Origin: Candidatus Saccharimonadota bacterium
GTDB lineage: Bacteria; Patescibacteriota; Saccharimonadia; Saccharimonadales; Saccharimonadaceae
NCBI GenBank assembly: GCA_017406985.1
Contig: JAFQXL010000004.1
Span: 309,708 to 373,707 of the forward strand
Length of the DNA stretch: 64,000 bases
Direction of reading: 5' to 3'
Shown here in pieces: positions 5,201 to 62,402 of the stretch. The number at the start of each line of letters is the position of its first letter. Positions within the stretch are counted from its first letter, which is position 1. Both the position numbers and the translations under genes were made by a program. The notes beneath the pieces were generated by a model. It was not told where the DNA came from. It made no database searches and was given only the letters and a program-made list of their open reading frames with translations.

Positions 5201-5971
5201 AAAGCAAGAATCCGCGCGCTCTCGAACGCTCTCGCTAGTAAAGGTAAAGATGGTCGTCAACGTATGTTTAATGCGGTTGATAGCGCTCAAAAGAACGGTG
5301 CGTCTAAAGATGCTATCCAAACATTCTCGAGTAACATCCAGAACAATCATGCTGGTACTATGAAAGACAAGTTCCGTCCGCTTTACGAGTTTACCAAAAA
5401 GGCTCAAGTCGATGGTTCGGGAAATATCTCGGATTACAAATATTCGGCTGTCGACAAATTCTCGACGGGCGATATGGCGAATATGGACGTTACGCATCTT
5501 CAAGACTTCGTTAATTATGATAAGAAAAGTAATACTTATGCGGGCGGCTTTAACGCTAACTTTACAAGCGAAGCGGATCGGGCTACGCTTACTAACCTTG
5601 CTAGGCAGACTCTTGCTGACGAACATTTATCTCAAAATCTTTCCGGAGAACAAAGATCTGCGCTTGAAGCAATTGTTAAAGCAGGGCAAGTTAATAACCC
5701 GGCTCCAGCTCCGGCTGGCGCAGCGCAAGAAGGCCAAGAGTTCAAGATTCATAATCAAGACGAGGTTATCAGGAGAGTTACGGCGGGCGAATTAACTCCG
5801 GCACAAGGAGACCGATGGATTGAGATTATGAAAAATCCAACCGCGGCGGAACGAGAGTTTATTAATCGTACAAATCAGAAAATTGCGGATAAAACCTATT
5901 CTCAAGAAAAGGCAAATGAGTTAATAAAGGCGATGGTTGATAAATCTCTCAAGGATAATCCAAATAGATAA
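2282..5971 (+). CDS. VirB6/TrbL-like multi-membrane protein with large ectodomain
   Basis: I place the start at ATG 2282, one base after the upstream stop; GTG 2270 is an in-frame alternative. The 1229-aa protein has a signal peptide (MKKLKLLKKIIVL to TYALAG), an extracellular domain of about 440 residues with scattered Cys, and an acidic/glycine linker (DDDDDNGGGGGG). Next comes a block of about six or seven membrane spans (roughly residues 555-790), introduced by a Cys-rich WIICPIIFGMRD stretch. The last 430 residues are charged, Ala/Asn/Arg-rich and probably cytoplasmic. Hydrophobic core plus long soluble tail is typical of VirB6/TrbL channel components of type IV secretion-like systems, widespread in CPR genomes. 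The family call rests on architecture. No VirB4 or VirD4 partner lies in the window. Confidence 0.7.
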   Translation: MKKLKLLKKIIVLTPALLIFSVFLSSFKTENTYALAGSAEQYHKLAVMRGVQQCYSSHAKSQIKQSDFTGWTSIFDGNINSDGEIIIPTKVGNTINNNDFSCQDVFAGYNDVGGSGSGFKNYATIPTTLTDLGYVFSHNEGAANSKSGTPDADTDQVTLKFSDITDASGNDSRPIAVSGEIVINGEQKYYNGWVRKYHYWNITGVSGSLEAKYNGETLYTLQFSGSQYPFQAGTVKHSDGTVEPISTFSYDVDVLYTQLYNGKTSSSKLTLADAISNFTSDVEANIKDAGKYVFTSPNVSANVTFTAPKEDDRNNANSVYKINTNGATASSIMLAAANAGEDLPHTDGSLSGAGGTVKTRSFYWSDAYKYGLYYQYLKDIMSEYSGISIGACSSSKPDGAAHYFKGTKDNWCPINIPADSQGALSKELAIVGSRDLEMGKFEDILEWFKNEDSYKYLQEGDYANVDKKNDDDDDNGGGGGGTDPSETGDTETTPEEACYRRAGSMGWIICPIIFGMRDVADGIYGAIEGFIKVDDSIVGQIGQGINSNNGSIYQAWNTFRGIANIVFVILFLVVIFSQLTGFGIDNYGIKKMLPKLIITAILINLSFIICAVAVDISNIVGRSIHDFFTGLNVTAQINGESVSSDLAVAAKQVTAYIVDIALVAGATVGLGALVVLNFWELIIPILLFLLTFVIAIIFAFIILGLRQAAVVVLIVIAPLALALYALPNTEKVFKKWVDAFKGVLVVYPIVGAVTGGGGFAGRVLLSADNGFLMTLTAGLLFVVPYFLIPSLMRKSLSAIGDIGNRLHNVGRNAGSRLSNGINNLDRVKNARADFSERNAQNRAERYFRSRRADRDAEAVKNGTATIRQSRRYRRNAGLANTQRQANIEARSAQSQYNRLQSETGYQAALSSANMSEADTAVKNFETMITAGDYAFDYTDDKGISHSTLNAQDNSAIAKALEHELTTSDGSDDSKARIRALSNALASKGKDGRQRMFNAVDSAQKNGASKDAIQTFSSNIQNNHAGTMKDKFRPLYEFTKKAQVDGSGNISDYKYSAVDKFSTGDMANMDVTHLQDFVNYDKKSNTYAGGFNANFTSEADRATLTNLARQTLADEHLSQNLSGEQRSALEAIVKAGQVNNPAPAPAGAAQEGQEFKIHNQDEVIRRVTAGELTPAQGDRWIEIMKNPTAAEREFINRTNQKIADKTYSQEKANELIKAMVDKSLKDNPNR

Positions 5972-6067: not shown

Positions 6068-7726
6068 TTATTTACGAAGTTGTTTGCGGCTAGCAAGGTA
6101 ATAACCAGCGACGGTAACCGTTCCGCCGAGGCCAGCAACACCGGTAGCGATCGAAGATGCACCAGTATTAGGAAGTTCAGATTTTTCACATTGAGCTTTA
6201 TAAGTGTCATAATCAACGGTATCGCCGTTAATTCCGTAGTAAGTTCCCTTAACTACTTCACACTTATGGGTATCGGTTGGGGTTGGAGTAGATTCACATT
6301 CAGATTTGTAAGTCTTCTCGTCAACAACGTTACCGTTCTTACCATAGTAAACACCAGAGATTACTTCACATTTGTGTTCAACAACTGGAGTTGTACATTC
6401 TTTATCATAAACTTCTTTAGTAACGACATTTCCGTCTTTACCATAATAAACGCCAGAAATTACTTCGCACTTATGAGTTTCCGGAGTTGTACACTCTTTC
6501 TCGTAAACTTCTTTAGTGACAACGTTTCCGTTTTTACCGTAGTAAACACCGTCTACGATTTCACATTTATGAGTTTTTGGAGTTTCACAAGTTTTCTCAA
6601 CATAAACTTCAGCACTATCTTGGACAGCGAAGTAGTTTACGTTTGTAGAAGTACCGACATAGTTAACGGCTTTTGCCCAGTTAATTAAGCGGTTTGTGCC
6701 ACAAGTAAGGCTATTATCGACAACCTTAGCTTGGAAGCGGATGTAAGCGTTTGCGCCGACTTTATAACCACCAATGTTAATACCTTCAGTAGTTAATTTG
6801 TCGCTCGTAACTGTTGCACCATTAGGATAGGTTGCGTTATAAATCTTAGTAGAATTTTTAACGTATTCTAAGCCTTTTGGAAGCGAATCGTTAAGAGTTG
6901 TGTTACTAACCTGAGTTGCGTTTAAGTTCTTATACATAATCTGGAACTCAACGGTCTCACCAATTGAAGCTTTAACACTTTCGCTAAAGCTTTTATCGGT
7001 TAATTTACGAACAGTTTTAGAAATCTCAGAAGATTCGAAAACTGGTTTAACTTCGATAGTAACGTAGTTATCAAAGCCATAACAGCCTGGAACTTCGCCG
7101 TTTAAGCTATCGTAGCCGATTTTAACTCCGTTCGTAACGACGGAGTCAGCGAGTTTAACCCCGCCATTTTTACCAACCCCGTTATTTTCGAGGAGGGCAG
7201 AACCTTCGACGTAGTCGAGGTAGAATTTTTTACCGTTATTACTCTTGAAAACGACATCATCCCAGTATTTAGATGGGGTAGCGTTTGAAGAGTTAATATA
7301 ACCATCGACACGTTGTTCGGTAGAAACAACGGTACCGAGACTAAAGTTCGTAGTGACGTTTTTAGCGACGGCATCACGACCTTTAGGGCTGTTATTATGA
7401 ACGTAAAGACGGATGATGTAAGTTTTACCTTCTTCAACCGTGATTTCGTTATTCTGCCAGACATTATTTACACCGTTATTTCCGGTAGATTTGTCACGAG
7501 CAGCGACGAAGTTACGTTCATCTTTAATTGACCCATCTTTAAGAGAGTCATCTTTAATAGAGTTGAAAACAATTTTGTTTCCAAGGTCACCGTTGTTAAT
7601 CTGAGCAACGGTATAAGTGCGACGTCCGCCGGAGTTGTCTCCCCAAGCCGAAACGATCGCGGTCCCGATAGCGCCAGCAGTGACAACTGCAGCAGCCATC
7701 GTTACGAGTTTAATAGCTTTTTTCAT
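6068..7726 (-). CDS. LPXTG-type wall-anchored surface protein with tandem Cys-containing repeats
   Basis: The 552-aa protein begins with a signal peptide (MKKAIKLVTMAAAVVTAGAI). A middle region of about residues 240-350 resembles the DUF11/conserved-repeat fold of bacterial adhesins (KTVRKLTDKSFSESVKASIG, SLPKGLEYVKNST). Then come five tandem units of about 30-35 residues, each with HKCEV, VYYGKNGNVV and a second Cys; the two Cys could form a disulfide per unit. The C-terminus has ELPNTG, a hydrophobic span and RKQLRK, a canonical sortase signal. The start has a good ribosome site (GAAAGGAG). Function is presumably adhesion or stalk formation on the cell surface. Repeat number could change by slippage or recombination (DNA about 6190-6590). 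Confidence 0.85.
   Translation of the reverse strand: MKKAIKLVTMAAAVVTAGAIGTAIVSAWGDNSGGRRTYTVAQINNGDLGNKIVFNSIKDDSLKDGSIKDERNFVAARDKSTGNNGVNNVWQNNEITVEEGKTYIIRLYVHNNSPKGRDAVAKNVTTNFSLGTVVSTEQRVDGYINSSNATPSKYWDDVVFKSNNGKKFYLDYVEGSALLENNGVGKNGGVKLADSVVTNGVKIGYDSLNGEVPGCYGFDNYVTIEVKPVFESSEISKTVRKLTDKSFSESVKASIGETVEFQIMYKNLNATQVSNTTLNDSLPKGLEYVKNSTKIYNATYPNGATVTSDKLTTEGINIGGYKVGANAYIRFQAKVVDNSLTCGTNRLINWAKAVNYVGTSTNVNYFAVQDSAEVYVEKTCETPKTHKCEIVDGVYYGKNGNVVTKEVYEKECTTPETHKCEVISGVYYGKDGNVVTKEVYDKECTTPVVEHKCEVISGVYYGKNGNVVDEKTYKSECESTPTPTDTHKCEVVKGTYYGINGDTVDYDTYKAQCEKSELPNTGASSIATGVAGLGGTVTVAGYYLASRKQLRK
6190..6590 (-). repeat. Five in-frame tandem repeats of about 100 bp
   Basis: The DNA encodes HKCEV...YYGK(N/D)GNVV...C units of the surface protein. 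Units 2 to 4 are most alike; the one next to the anchor (YGINGDTVDYDTYKAQCEKS) is most diverged. Repeat-number variation between strains is expected by analogy with other surface repeats, not seen here. Confidence 0.75.
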
Positions 7727-58516: not shown

Positions 58517-58951
58517 TTACTGATTTAAGTTAGTCCAAGCACGTTTTATCTCTTGAAATTTTTCCGTCCCAAGCTCACATATACGACTATATATTCTTGA
58601 ACTACTAATCGTCCTACTTTGATGTAGTGCAAGATACTGGTCTCTACCTTCGAAAAAGGTGCGATAATAAAAAGGCGGTGTATGTTCTTTGCTCGTAACT
58701 GGTATAACCTTAATTAAATACTCAGAATATCTTTTATAAATTAAAACTGGCCTGGAAAAGAATTGAGACTCTCCGTTTATTTCAGAACCAACATTTCTTC
58801 CAACCCCACACCACCAAATCTCGCCTTCTCTGGCCTGTTTATTGGTTTTCTTGAGGTCTAAACTTTTCTTCAAATTATTCCATTTGTCAAAAGTTATTTC
58901 TTCTTGAGCTACTTTCTCGAAGCCTCTTATTTTATTAGAATTATTTTTCAT
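58517..58951 (-). CDS. MazF/PemK-like endoribonuclease-type toxin, orphan
   Basis: The 144-aa protein has a MazF-fold core from residue 40: REGEIWWCGVGRNVGSEING, SRPVLIYKR, VIPVTSK and LALHQSRTISSSRIYSRI. The Arg and Ser/Thr positions used for mRNA cleavage in MazF (RPVL, VTS) are present. A 40-residue N-terminal extension (FEKVAQEEITFDKWNNLKKS) precedes it. No antitoxin gene of usual type is adjacent. Either the extension binds or blocks the active site, or the antitoxin lies elsewhere, or the short RNA at 58461-58516 is involved; all inference. The promoter (58982-59009) carries GCTTATGC. Confidence 0.75.
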   Translation of the reverse strand: MKNNSNKIRGFEKVAQEEITFDKWNNLKKSLDLKKTNKQAREGEIWWCGVGRNVGSEINGESQFFSRPVLIYKRYSEYLIKVIPVTSKEHTPPFYYRTFFEGRDQYLALHQSRTISSSRIYSRICELGTEKFQEIKRAWTNLNQ

Positions 58952-59157: not shown

Positions 59158-60969
59158 TTAGACACTGGCGCCGAGATATAGGATTTTGGCGTAGCCGTTT
59201 CCGGTTTTGCTGTAGTCTGATGTGGCGGTAGCGGAGACGTTGGTATTTGAGTTTGTTCTTGTTGCGGCAACGCTAGAGGTAGTACAGGAATAGCAGGTCA
59301 TATGTTTCGTGATTGTGCTAGTTGAAATTAGGTTTGAAGAACTGATGTAGCCGGAGCCACCAGACGACGACGTATAAACTGAACCTGCCCCTCCATACCA
59401 GCCTCCTCCACCTCCAGGGATAGCACTGCCATAACAGTCAGTTTTAGACGAGTCTGTAAAACAATCTGCAGTACCAGTTGCATAGCCAAAACCAGACGCC
59501 GTGAACGGCGGAATTTGGAGAAGATTTGTGCGGTTATAGCCTTGGCCACCGGCTAGTTGTGTTGCCACGGTAGGTTGAGTTGATCTGCCTGCACTAGCGC
59601 CTGATACCGAATTAACTCCACCGCCATGTCCGCCATACCCCTGCCAGCTACCACCGTAACGATGCACACTTCCGCCACCTCCGCCGCCTGCAACAATTAA
59701 GATTTCATTCGAGACGTAATAGGAGTTATTAGTTAAAGTGCCTTTATAGCTTTCGAGGTTTTTGAGTAGTCCAGAGACGGACGCGATATGAGTAGCTCCC
59801 CCGCCAGTAGCAGTCCTCCAAACATAAGAATCCGACAGCGACGCGCTTTCTTTACCACAGCCAGCTTGGCCTCCTCCATTATATCCTCCAGATTTGATTA
59901 CCCACGTCGTAGAGGTAGAGTCACAGGGAACGCCTTTCCCGCCAACGTTTATATATTTACTATCCTGTTTTTTTAGATTTATTACGCCGACCGAGTAAGC
60001 GCCATAGCCACCACTAAAAGCTGCGGAATTATACGTAGCCGTTCCGCCTTCCGCACCCCAAACCTCAAGTTTATAATATCCACCACACGGCGCAGTAAAG
60101 GTCTGTTCTCCTCCAGTATAGTCATAAGCATAAGGAGTGTTCTTAACCCAACAGGCACTAAGCGTAACCGTAAAGTTATTGTCTGGATTTGGATTAGCAG
60201 TTGTTTCTGTTCCGGTAAAATCTAAGGACCCATTGGACCATCCGCCAAAGATGTATCCAGATTTTGTAGTAGTATAGTTATTTAGATTTACTGTATCTCC
60301 ATAGTTAATGGATTGATCAGATATAGTACTTCCTCCATCAGTATTAAACTTTAATGTATAAGCAAGACATTCAGGAGCAACAGCAACCGTATATACTACA
60401 TCATTAGTATATGTACCAGAAGGAATAGTATTATCTAGCTTAACTCCATAGATAACATCAATATCTGTATTAGTTTCAGCTACTGTACTATAATAAAGAA
60501 CAGCTGGAGATGTATTTACCGGTACCTGGGAGAAAACCTTTCCACTTGTTTTAAAGCCCCAAGTATTATCAGTTAGTCCAGTAGTTACATCTCCAGCTAC
60601 AGCATCAATAGTTTTAACACCAGAATCAGACCCGGTGCGCGTCAAGGAGTTATTAGAAGCAGAGTTCGTATTTATATATACATAAGCTCCTTTAGTACAA
60701 GTAGAAGTAAACTTAATATTATTTGTATTAGTATATTCTGTTTGAGTATTAGTAGGAGTGATGGGAATAGTTACAGTATTATCATTAGAGATTGAAGCAT
60801 AATAGACAGAGCTACCTGCAGAGGCGGAAGTGGTGGTGGCTTCGCTTTTATTTGGTTCGGCAATTAAAAAGCTAATCAAGAGACCGATTAGCAAAAAGAA
60901 CGTAAAAGTAACGAGAATATTTAAAAATGTATTAAAGGTGCTGTTTGTTTTAGTGGAAAAGCTTGACAT
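59158..60969 (-). CDS. Glycine-rich anchored surface protein (expressed copy of inversion locus 2)
   Basis: The 603-aa protein has an N-terminal signal anchor (ILVTFTFFLLIGLLISFLIA), a Thr/Asn-rich beta domain, and a Listeria-Bacteroides (InlB-type) repeat (YTLKFNTDGGSTISDQSIN to YIFGGWSNGS). A large glycine-rich domain of the ALK/LTK-like bacterial type follows (YDYTGGEQTFTAPCGGYYKL, GGGATHIASVSG, ILIVAGGGGGG), ending SKTGNGYAKILYLGASV. It is a probable adhesin. Its last 350 residues are duplicated and diverged in the inverted cassette 61332-62402; the first 250 are unique. It has a strong promoter and a 245-nt folded leader. Confidence 0.85.
   Translation of the reverse strand: MSSFSTKTNSTFNTFLNILVTFTFFLLIGLLISFLIAEPNKSEATTTSASAGSSVYYASISNDNTVTIPITPTNTQTEYTNTNNIKFTSTCTKGAYVYINTNSASNNSLTRTGSDSGVKTIDAVAGDVTTGLTDNTWGFKTSGKVFSQVPVNTSPAVLYYSTVAETNTDIDVIYGVKLDNTIPSGTYTNDVVYTVAVAPECLAYTLKFNTDGGSTISDQSINYGDTVNLNNYTTTKSGYIFGGWSNGSLDFTGTETTANPNPDNNFTVTLSACWVKNTPYAYDYTGGEQTFTAPCGGYYKLEVWGAEGGTATYNSAAFSGGYGAYSVGVINLKKQDSKYINVGGKGVPCDSTSTTWVIKSGGYNGGGQAGCGKESASLSDSYVWRTATGGGATHIASVSGLLKNLESYKGTLTNNSYYVSNEILIVAGGGGGGSVHRYGGSWQGYGGHGGGVNSVSGASAGRSTQPTVATQLAGGQGYNRTNLLQIPPFTASGFGYATGTADCFTDSSKTDCYGSAIPGGGGGWYGGAGSVYTSSSGGSGYISSSNLISTSTITKHMTCYSCTTSSVAATRTNSNTNVSATATSDYSKTGNGYAKILYLGASV
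60155..60216 (-). repeat. 62-bp exact inverted repeat, left copy (locus 2)
   Basis: Exact inverted match to 61353-61414; homology extends from 60230 inward (GGTCCTTAGATTT) with one mismatch, then about 100 bp more at lower identity. It encodes TGTETTANPNPDNNFTVTLS. Confidence 0.9.
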
Positions 60970-61215
60970 GTTATACTCCTATTTTTTATATAGGTAGCAC
61001 CTCAGCCTCCACTCATCTAAAGAAGCAATAAGGCGCCACTAGGGTGCATACATCTCTACAGACTAACAAATCTCGGCATAGCCTAAATCCATTAGGTAAA
61101 GTTGTCCTAATGACGCCTTTGTTGTTCCTAATGGATAGATTTATTAACCTCTAGTTGTAGATATGCGCCTATTTTTTATAAAAATAGGATTTGTTAATCT
61201 GATAAAAATGTATGC
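60970..61215 (-). ncRNA. Large multi-stem 5' leader of the surface gene
   Basis: From the expected start (about 61215) the RNA closes on itself. ATGTATGCA (61208-61216) pairs with TGCATACAT (61045-61053). GATTTGTTAATCT (61188-61200) pairs with AGACTAACAAATC (61060-61072) over 13 bp with one G-U. Inside are CCTATTTTTTATAAAAATAGG (61168-61188) and CCTAATGGAT/ATCCATTAGG (61127-61136, 61087-61096). Downstream are GGCGCC, a GGTGC/GCACC pair and a 4-codon upstream frame before the ribosome site GGAG. Not a class I recognise. Confidence 0.6.
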
Positions 61216-61221
61216 AACTTT

Positions 61222-61251
61222 ATTATAACCCAAAACTATTCGATATTTCAA
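61222..61251 (-). promoter_or_regulatory. Promoter of the 60969-59158 surface gene
   Basis: Minus: TTGAAA (61251-61246), 18 bp, TATAAT (61227-61222). It lies inside the putative invertible segment. Confidence 0.75.
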
Positions 61252-61275
61252 GTCTTGAATTTTGTCATTTTTATT

Positions 61276-61307
61276 GTTTAGTTTTTTGCTTGCGAGCCGA
61301 CGCCCGC
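61276..61307 (-). repeat. Dispersed GC-rich/A-rich repeat, copy 2
   Basis: On the minus strand GCGGGCGTCGGCTCGCAAGC, then AAAAAACTAAAC; 27 of 32 positions equal 58386-58417. It lies upstream of the surface-gene promoter. Confidence 0.6.
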
Positions 61308-61331
61308 CGGAAAGGCCGTTTATCCGGATAG

Positions 61332-62402
61332 ATTAAACGGTCCTTAGATTTCACCGGAACAGAAACAACTGCTAATCCAAATCCAGACAATAACTTTACG
61401 GTTACGCTTAGTGCTTGTTGGGTGAAATCTAGTGCTTATGCTTATGACTATACTGGAGGAGAACAAACCTTTACTGCTCCTTGTGGTGGATATTATAAGT
61501 TGGAGGTGTGGGGGGCGAGCGGCGCAGACGGATGGAATAGTTGGACGACTAAAATTTATCAGAAAACATTAGGAAAGGGCGCCTATGTTGCCGGTTCGAT
61601 AAAAGTTAATAAAAATAATCCGTTATATATTTATGTAGGCGGAGCGGCAACAAAACTCACGGGTTATTCAGACGCGCCAGGGGGATATAACGGTGGTGGT
61701 GGCGGTTGCAAGGCAGTTGACGGCGATGATGCGGCCGGAGCAGGAGGAGGTTCGACGGATATACGTGTAATCTCTGGGGAATGGAACGATGATAATTCCT
61801 TAAGAAGTCGGATACTTGTTGCGGGCGGTGGTGGTGGCTCTCACCTTACTCTTGATACCGCCACTCTTTATGAACAGGGTAGACATGCCGGAGGAATTTC
61901 GGTAGTTGGTCAGATTTCCGGCAAAACTGATAGCGATATTTGGTCGCCTACGGTAAATCAGACAACCGGCGGGGCTTTTGGGTATGGAGCTACCGGCATT
62001 TGCCCCAGTGGTGCCGGACATAGCGGAGGAGGAGGTGGATGGTATGGCGGAGAAGCAAAATCCACAGGCAATGAAAATGACGGCGCCGGTGGCTCTTCCT
62101 ACATCTCCGGTCATACGGGCGCAGTAGGGGTAACGTCTACGTCTGATAGTTCTCCTAAGACTGGATGTACAACCGGAACTACAAATAACACTTGTAGTCT
62201 AACGCCATATATAAATCCTGCTACTGGAACTTATTATACATTTACTAATACAGTAATGATAGATGGGGCAGGATATGCTTGGACGAACACAAAAGGTTCC
62301 CTACAGCAGATGCCGAATCCGAGTGGTGGATATTACGCGAGCGGAGTCGGACATAGCGGAAACGGTTATGCGAAGATAACATATCTTGGAACTACAATCT
62401 AG
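61332..62402 (+). pseudogene. Silent 5'-less cassette of the glycine-rich surface protein
   Basis: The frame is open for about 355 codons to TAG 62402 but has no ATG, no ribosome site and a TAG at 61329-61331. From 61339 it reads SLDFTGTETTANPNPDNNFT and on, identical to the middle of the 59158-60969 protein, then the glycine-rich domain with a different interior (KIYQKTLGKGAYVAGSIKV, GGGSTDIRVISG, RILVAGGGGGSHLTLD) and the shared ending GNGYAKITYLGTTI. A GTG at 61422 is in frame but would produce no signal sequence. I read it as a donor cassette expressed only after inversion. Confidence 0.75.
61353..61414 (+). repeat. 62-bp exact inverted repeat, right copy (locus 2)
   Basis: Exact inverted match to 60155-60216, at the start of the silent cassette. 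Confidence 0.9.

Follow-up and report, generated by a model that had tools for sequence, protein, structure and literature searches.

The gene for a surface-type protein on contig JAFQXL010000004.1 of Candidatus Saccharimonadota is preceded by a stretch so rich in nested stems that it raises the question whether the mRNA begins with a regulatory RNA and, if so, how such an RNA would act. We analysed 64,000 nt of this contig (the window) and read the leader on the minus strand, at 61220-60970. A preliminary description had taken it for an unrecognised, large structured leader, riboswitch-like or thermometer-like, with the transcript starting at the closing stem and with more nested pairing than chance would give. 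Its stems and both inner hairpins (~61187-61169 and ~61137-61086) were found in place on the minus strand, and since the sigma-70-like promoter lies at 61251-61222, the expected 5' end of the RNA is the first base of the closing helix, as had been proposed. The pairing is indeed above chance, as 61220-60970 folds at -84.6 kcal/mol (z = -7.18) and 0 of 200 shuffles did as well; the opposite strand of the same stretch gave z = -3.05 against its shuffles. The features of the window copy are as follows.

61222-61251, minus strand: putative sigma-70-like promoter, TTGAAA-18-TATAAT, from the sequence and from the -10-like box found family-wide
61188-61216, minus strand: 5' arm of P1/P2 (closing helix), whose first base is the expected transcription start
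61169-61187, minus strand: hairpin P3, of the type CCUAUUUUU...AAAAAUAGG
61086-61137, minus strand: hairpin P4 with strand A in its loop, from the fold and from arms of 8/8 pairs in most members
61106-61118, minus strand: strand A, AGGCGUCAUUAGG, 5' strand of the pseudoknot, from covariation
61045-61072, minus strand: 3' arm of P1/P2, with two-sided changes among window-type copies
61031-61043, minus strand: strand S, CCUAGUGGCGCCU, 3' strand of the pseudoknot, from covariation; UAUUG comes after it in place of the usual U-run
61016-61002, minus strand: four-codon frame ATGAGTGGAGGCTGA
60994-61006, minus strand: A', a weak second complement of S (best 9/13), in the fold the 3' arm of a hairpin P5
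60976-60994, minus strand: small hairpin containing the Shine-Dalgarno sequence AGGAG

The closing stem and the 13-bp stem, listed separately in the preliminary description, proved to be a single nearly continuous helix (61216-61188 with 61072-61045). That description had missed both the second partner of S and a 13-bp pseudoknot, A:S, in which the loop of P4 (61118-61106) pairs with the strand just 3' of P1 (61043-61031). The pseudoknot, AGGCGUCAUUAGG pairing with CCUAGUGGCGCCU over 13 positions, was first spotted by eye when the window copy was aligned with the second of the three leader copies of this genome. This second copy (L002/L237, C3:286444-286737) has 72% identity and stands before a related surface gene; the third (L034, C3:61356) precedes a protein of 32% identity and keeps the pairing with different letters, CGGCGUCACGAG with CUCGUGACGCCG. 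A pattern search of 392 genomes of the order yielded one further accepted copy, in genome G400 of the same genus, where a homologous leader precedes a homologous gene. Among the three window-type copies 6/28 pairs of helix P1/P2 carry two-sided changes and none is broken. The four-codon upstream frame noted earlier does exist in the window, but it is not conserved, since the aligned L002 copy has no ATG there and the frame is absent from the G400 copy. We also observed, in the three window-type copies, that the P3 strand UCCUAUUUUU (61187-61169 in the window) is complementary to the ribosome site AAAAAUAGGAG (60994-60976).

The distribution of such leaders was examined with two covariance models, R1, built from the three window-type copies, and R2, built from 15 compact members. 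R1 found compact members in 14/174 genomes of the genus (E <= 0.1), and R2 had matches in 77/174 (E <= 0.05). Across the order R2 matched 33/392 genomes, 32 of them in the genus, and in a sample of the phylum 2/286, both of the same genus; with more thorough scoring it also matched 4/40 genomes chosen outside the genus but within the family, one of which gave 7 matches. Copies from these other genera have the same layout on inspection, and a script recovered that layout everywhere except at locus L307. In searches of more than 40 genomes 8-18 first-look candidates were scored per genome (78 in the scoring that brought up the four genomes of other genera), and absence there is for this reason weak evidence. 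The richest genome, G222, holds 39 copies at E < 1e-8, counted by hand. The window copy, which had no part in building R2, is matched by it at 50.6 bits and has the layout of the family, with P1 running from the start site, A in the inner loop and S directly 3' of P1. Tandem pairs of leaders were seen at L168, L174 and L309/L311.

A pattern scan of a named genome collection returned 23 stretches, of which 14 were read as members, all from Candidatus Saccharibacteria MAGs, and going by the record titles the gut of goat, sheep or roe deer was the source of 12; the remainder were taken as chance, including a Lachnospiraceae contig (L186) that gave no R2 row. Spread by viruses was considered and rejected: a first viral pattern returned at least 120 stretches, no member being accepted among the 120 listed, and stricter patterns returned 0, 0 and 7, the last with best R2 matches that were short (33-79 nt), terminator-like and not counted as members. 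Rfam 15 recognised only tRNAs in the whole window and left the leader unmatched, both in 60800-61600 and in 14 + 9 related loci; nor was the family found in print, in the open-licence subset of PMC. By sequence comparison the leader belongs to a structured-leader family that is new and comes from one family of Saccharibacteria.

The anatomy of the typical member was drawn from sets of 88, 83 and 95 rows, which differ because the scripts selected members slightly differently; selection of the 88 partly rewarded T after S, while T played no part in selecting the 83. A -10-like box (at least 5/6 of TATAAT) lies within 30 nt before P1 in 85/88 members, against 57% in the shuffled control, and mostly 9-13 nt before the closing stem. 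The P4 arms around A pair at 8/8 positions in 80/88 (null 15%), this simple test failing in the other 8/88. A U-run (TTTT within 9 nt after S) was noticed in 79/83 members against a background of 7%, the exceptions being the window copy (L241), the second own copy (L237), the G400 copy (L165) and L251; L034 has TATTTG after S. Downstream, a second complement of S, A', matches at 11/13 or better in 45/84 members (null 2%) and in 16/48 outside G222, while 39/84 have none at that level. It stands ~10-45 nt beyond the U-run, ahead of the ribosome-binding site, and follows the S of its own copy (9.80 vs 9.32 permuted, 0/300, n = 45), a permutation which says nothing within G222 since S is uniform there. 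A Shine-Dalgarno sequence with a reading frame follows within 260 nt in 73/83 members.

Covariation in homologous leaders had been named beforehand as the check on the stems, and it turned out to be overwhelming, so that a strongly structured leader with covarying stems and no Rfam match is what was found. In 95 distinct rows, with two antisense matches and one out-of-register L039 row still among them, two-sided changes occur at 12/12 pairs of P1 and at 10/16 pairs of A:S (13 core pairs and 3 A/U extension pairs). Pairing holds in 97.1% of cells, 440 of them two-sided, which 0/500 shuffles reach, and it falls to 32-49% when the partner is slid as a control. The alignment model included the P1 pairs and excluded those of the pseudoknot; the G222 rows, having one S in common, are not independent witnesses for the latter. 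Mismatches are 84 G-U vs 2 A-C in P1 and 150 G-U vs 23 A-C in A:S, and this excess of G-U fits selection on a single-stranded sense copy and not on a double-stranded DNA repeat. The A:S duplex has a median of -25.8 kcal/mol, against -5.7 for random 18-mers taken from upstream of the leader. Sequence itself is kept in A and S only, the other stems varying freely while their pairing is kept. The structured leader is real and larger than first described, and the evidence speaks for pairing at the RNA level.

What would such a leader do? Since the U-run directly follows S in 79/83 members, A:S looks like a pseudoknotted terminator, and we think it rather probable that the family consists of 5' leaders of surface-protein mRNAs acting in cis in the manner of an attenuator, A:S and the U-run together making a pseudoknotted intrinsic terminator. 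The RNA would begin at the first base of the long closing helix P1, the inner hairpin P4 would offer strand A in its loop, and A would pair with S directly 3' of P1, so that the pseudoknot adjoins P1. With A:S formed, transcription would stop at the U-run; with A:S unformed, the gene would be read on, and A' may then capture S in the read-through transcript. A protein, a small molecule, a tRNA, the speed of transcription or mere chance might decide between the two outcomes. As A' lies behind the U-run, it is no classical antiterminator for that decision and would act on read-through RNA only. The mark of an intrinsic terminator, a stable stem followed at once by a U-run, is found in the family and not in the window copy, whose broken U-run and weak A' leave the terminator step unsupported at this locus. 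The window copy keeps P1, P4 and A:S, and from its sequence a control of translation or of RNA stability, or decay of the element, would be just as likely there. The preliminary reading as a structured regulatory leader is partly supported and was right in kind.

Leaders that attenuate transcription have a GC-rich stem and then a U-run, a second pairing that competes for the terminator strand, and a ribosome-binding site and gene downstream. The present family resembles them as an mRNA leader with all of these parts, but its stem is a pseudoknot with the 5' strand in the loop of an inner hairpin, the enclosing P1 starts at the expected first base, and S has its second partner beyond the U-run. 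Pseudoknot riboswitches such as preQ1-I and SAM-II likewise switch by means of a pseudoknot in the leader; they are small and bind ligands, whereas the present core is a long-range duplex of 13 bp, up to 39 copies occur per genome and no ligand is suggested.

Among other explanations, that of a constitutive 5' stability cap, in which P1 buries the 5' end and a rigid pseudoknot protects surface-protein mRNAs with no switch involved, seems to us possible, though improbable. P1 does begin at the expected start site, the stem sequences vary freely with pairing alone kept, and the window copy without a U-run would suit it well, but the cap leaves both A' and the U-run after S unexplained. We regard as more doubtful a sensor of a ligand or tRNA, that is a riboswitch or a highly derived T-box in which A also binds a partner (e.g. 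the CCA end of a tRNA), so freeing S and preventing termination. A is GG-rich, with ACCG after it in many copies, and its GG is invariant or almost so amid covarying pairs (130-254 GC in 95/95, 131-253 GC in 93/95). Some copies have, like T-boxes, a GG..ACCGCG-like 5' strand and a CGCGGU..CC-UUUUU 3' strand, and those of other genera, GGGCACCGCG / GGACATCGCG with CGCGGTGTCC-TTTTTT, resemble the T-box/terminator pair. T-boxes (RF00230), however, carry UGGN in the antiterminator bulge, and here UGGN is missing, the base before GG not being a fixed U (columns 129-255: UA 57, CG 11, AU 10, UG 2, other 15); we recognised no specifier stem, Rfam gave no T-box match at E <= 0.5 or 2, and the genes behind the leader are surface-protein genes, not amino-acid genes. 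As to a riboswitch in the strict sense, with a ligand-binding aptamer, the genes suggest no ligand, and all stems except A and S vary freely in sequence.

It is also conceivable, though quite unlikely, that A and S form an inverted repeat in DNA for a recombinase or replication protein, their position in a leader being secondary. The leader does lie between inverted repeats at three loci, and contig ends cluster just downstream of the G222 copies; yet 234 G-U vs 25 A-C mismatches over P1 and A:S point to selection of one strand as a single strand, the spacing to the -10 box is near-fixed, and it is coding sequence, not the leader, that contains the long inverted repeats. Least of all do we believe in an RNA thermometer, one of the two likenesses drawn in the preliminary description, here taken as an element hiding the ribosome site. 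The Shine-Dalgarno sequence of the window copy does sit in a small AU hairpin, but no feature hints at temperature: the pseudoknot that forms the conserved core is GC-rich and has its 3' strand finish ~60 nt ahead of the start, most members have the U-run, and on inspection the ribosome-site hairpin is missing from compact members.

We now turn to the genes that such an attenuator would control. In the window and at two further window-type loci the surroundings of the leader are as follows.

59158-60969, minus strand: downstream gene, 603-aa secreted or anchored surface-type protein (Flg_new + ALK_LTK_GRD)
61422-62402, plus strand: headless ALK_LTK_GRD reading frame on the other side, with no leader of its own
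60045-60244, no strand: left arm of an inverted repeat on both sides of the leader (200 nt, 87%)
61325-61524, no strand: right arm of the same repeat
5669-5755 / 6889-6975, L003 locus: inverted repeat
1063-1260 / 2387-2584, L039 locus: inverted repeat

Downstream genes within the genus encode mostly secreted or anchored surface proteins. An N-terminal hydrophobic segment was found in 66/68 downstream proteins of sufficient length, and 46 of the 59 available gave 18 Fib_succ_major, 10 Flg_new and 2 ALK_LTK_GRD matches. Outside the genus some downstream genes (L302-L304, L306) are unnamed by Pfam or weakly OmpA-like, and the leader is therefore not tied to one protein family. A PemK/MazF-like toxin frame (58517-58951, minus strand) adjoins the surface gene of the window. 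At the three window-type loci inverted repeats (200 nt at 87%, 87 nt at 89% and 198 nt at 82%), with long identical cores in coding sequence, flank the promoter, leader and N-terminus, and each locus has a headless partner gene. This arrangement suggests that promoter, leader and N-terminus probably form an invertible surface-gene cassette, and it fits the earlier proposal that the leader controls whichever surface variant is in register, but inversion itself was not observed. Multi-gene surface antigen systems switched by DNA inversion are found in Mycoplasma (Vpma) and C. difficile (CwpV); the present loci share with them, as far as sequence tells, surface genes, an expressed leader beside silent partners and inverted repeats. 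They differ in the pseudoknotted leader, and we know of none of this kind in Vpma- or CwpV-type systems.

In G222 (L264-L300) homogenisation covers S, identical in 36/37 copies, and the sequence that follows it, while P1 and P4 are wholly different between copies, as if exchange stopped at S. Five ends of G222 contigs (C1, C2, C3, C4 and C5) lie no more than ~470 nt downstream of leader copies, more than we expected for 39 copies, which suggests repeats or rearrangement just behind the leader. Concerted evolution of S was considered as proof of a trans factor; it holds in G222 and fails in G007 and G355, where the copies vary in S and A changes along with it, and the argument was for this reason dropped in general. 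A NusG paralogue (a LoaP-like antiterminator) as trans factor was rejected, a single NusG being present in 21/21 genomes, whether they carry the leader or not. For G222 a trans partner dedicated to S was likewise rejected: the 39 exact copies of CTTGCGGTGCCA are 38 leader S strands and one A' (coordinates matched by us), and no orphan RNA was found in that genome, four of the one-mismatch hits (C1:253210, C1:270796, C2:1342 and C2:32938) being left unassigned. Since S is identical in 36/37 G222 copies, leaders might conceivably pair with one another in trans. A wider scheme, which we offer as speculative and rather unlikely, would make S a family-wide switch that picks either the pseudoknotted terminator or the downstream partner and so co-ordinates the surface coat of host-attached Saccharibacteria; leaders and short terminated RNAs would also pair in trans, coupling tens of surface genes or making them mutually exclusive, and in the window the switch would sit inside the invertible promoter-leader-N-terminus cassette.

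To our knowledge, how Saccharibacteria and other Patescibacteria regulate their genes is poorly understood. Up to 39 such leaders in a genome of ~0.8 Mb, standing before surface proteins, would be among the largest regulons of these bacteria; and if the pseudoknot is a terminator, it would be of unusual design and would provide a test case for the control of RNA polymerase by the topology of the nascent RNA.
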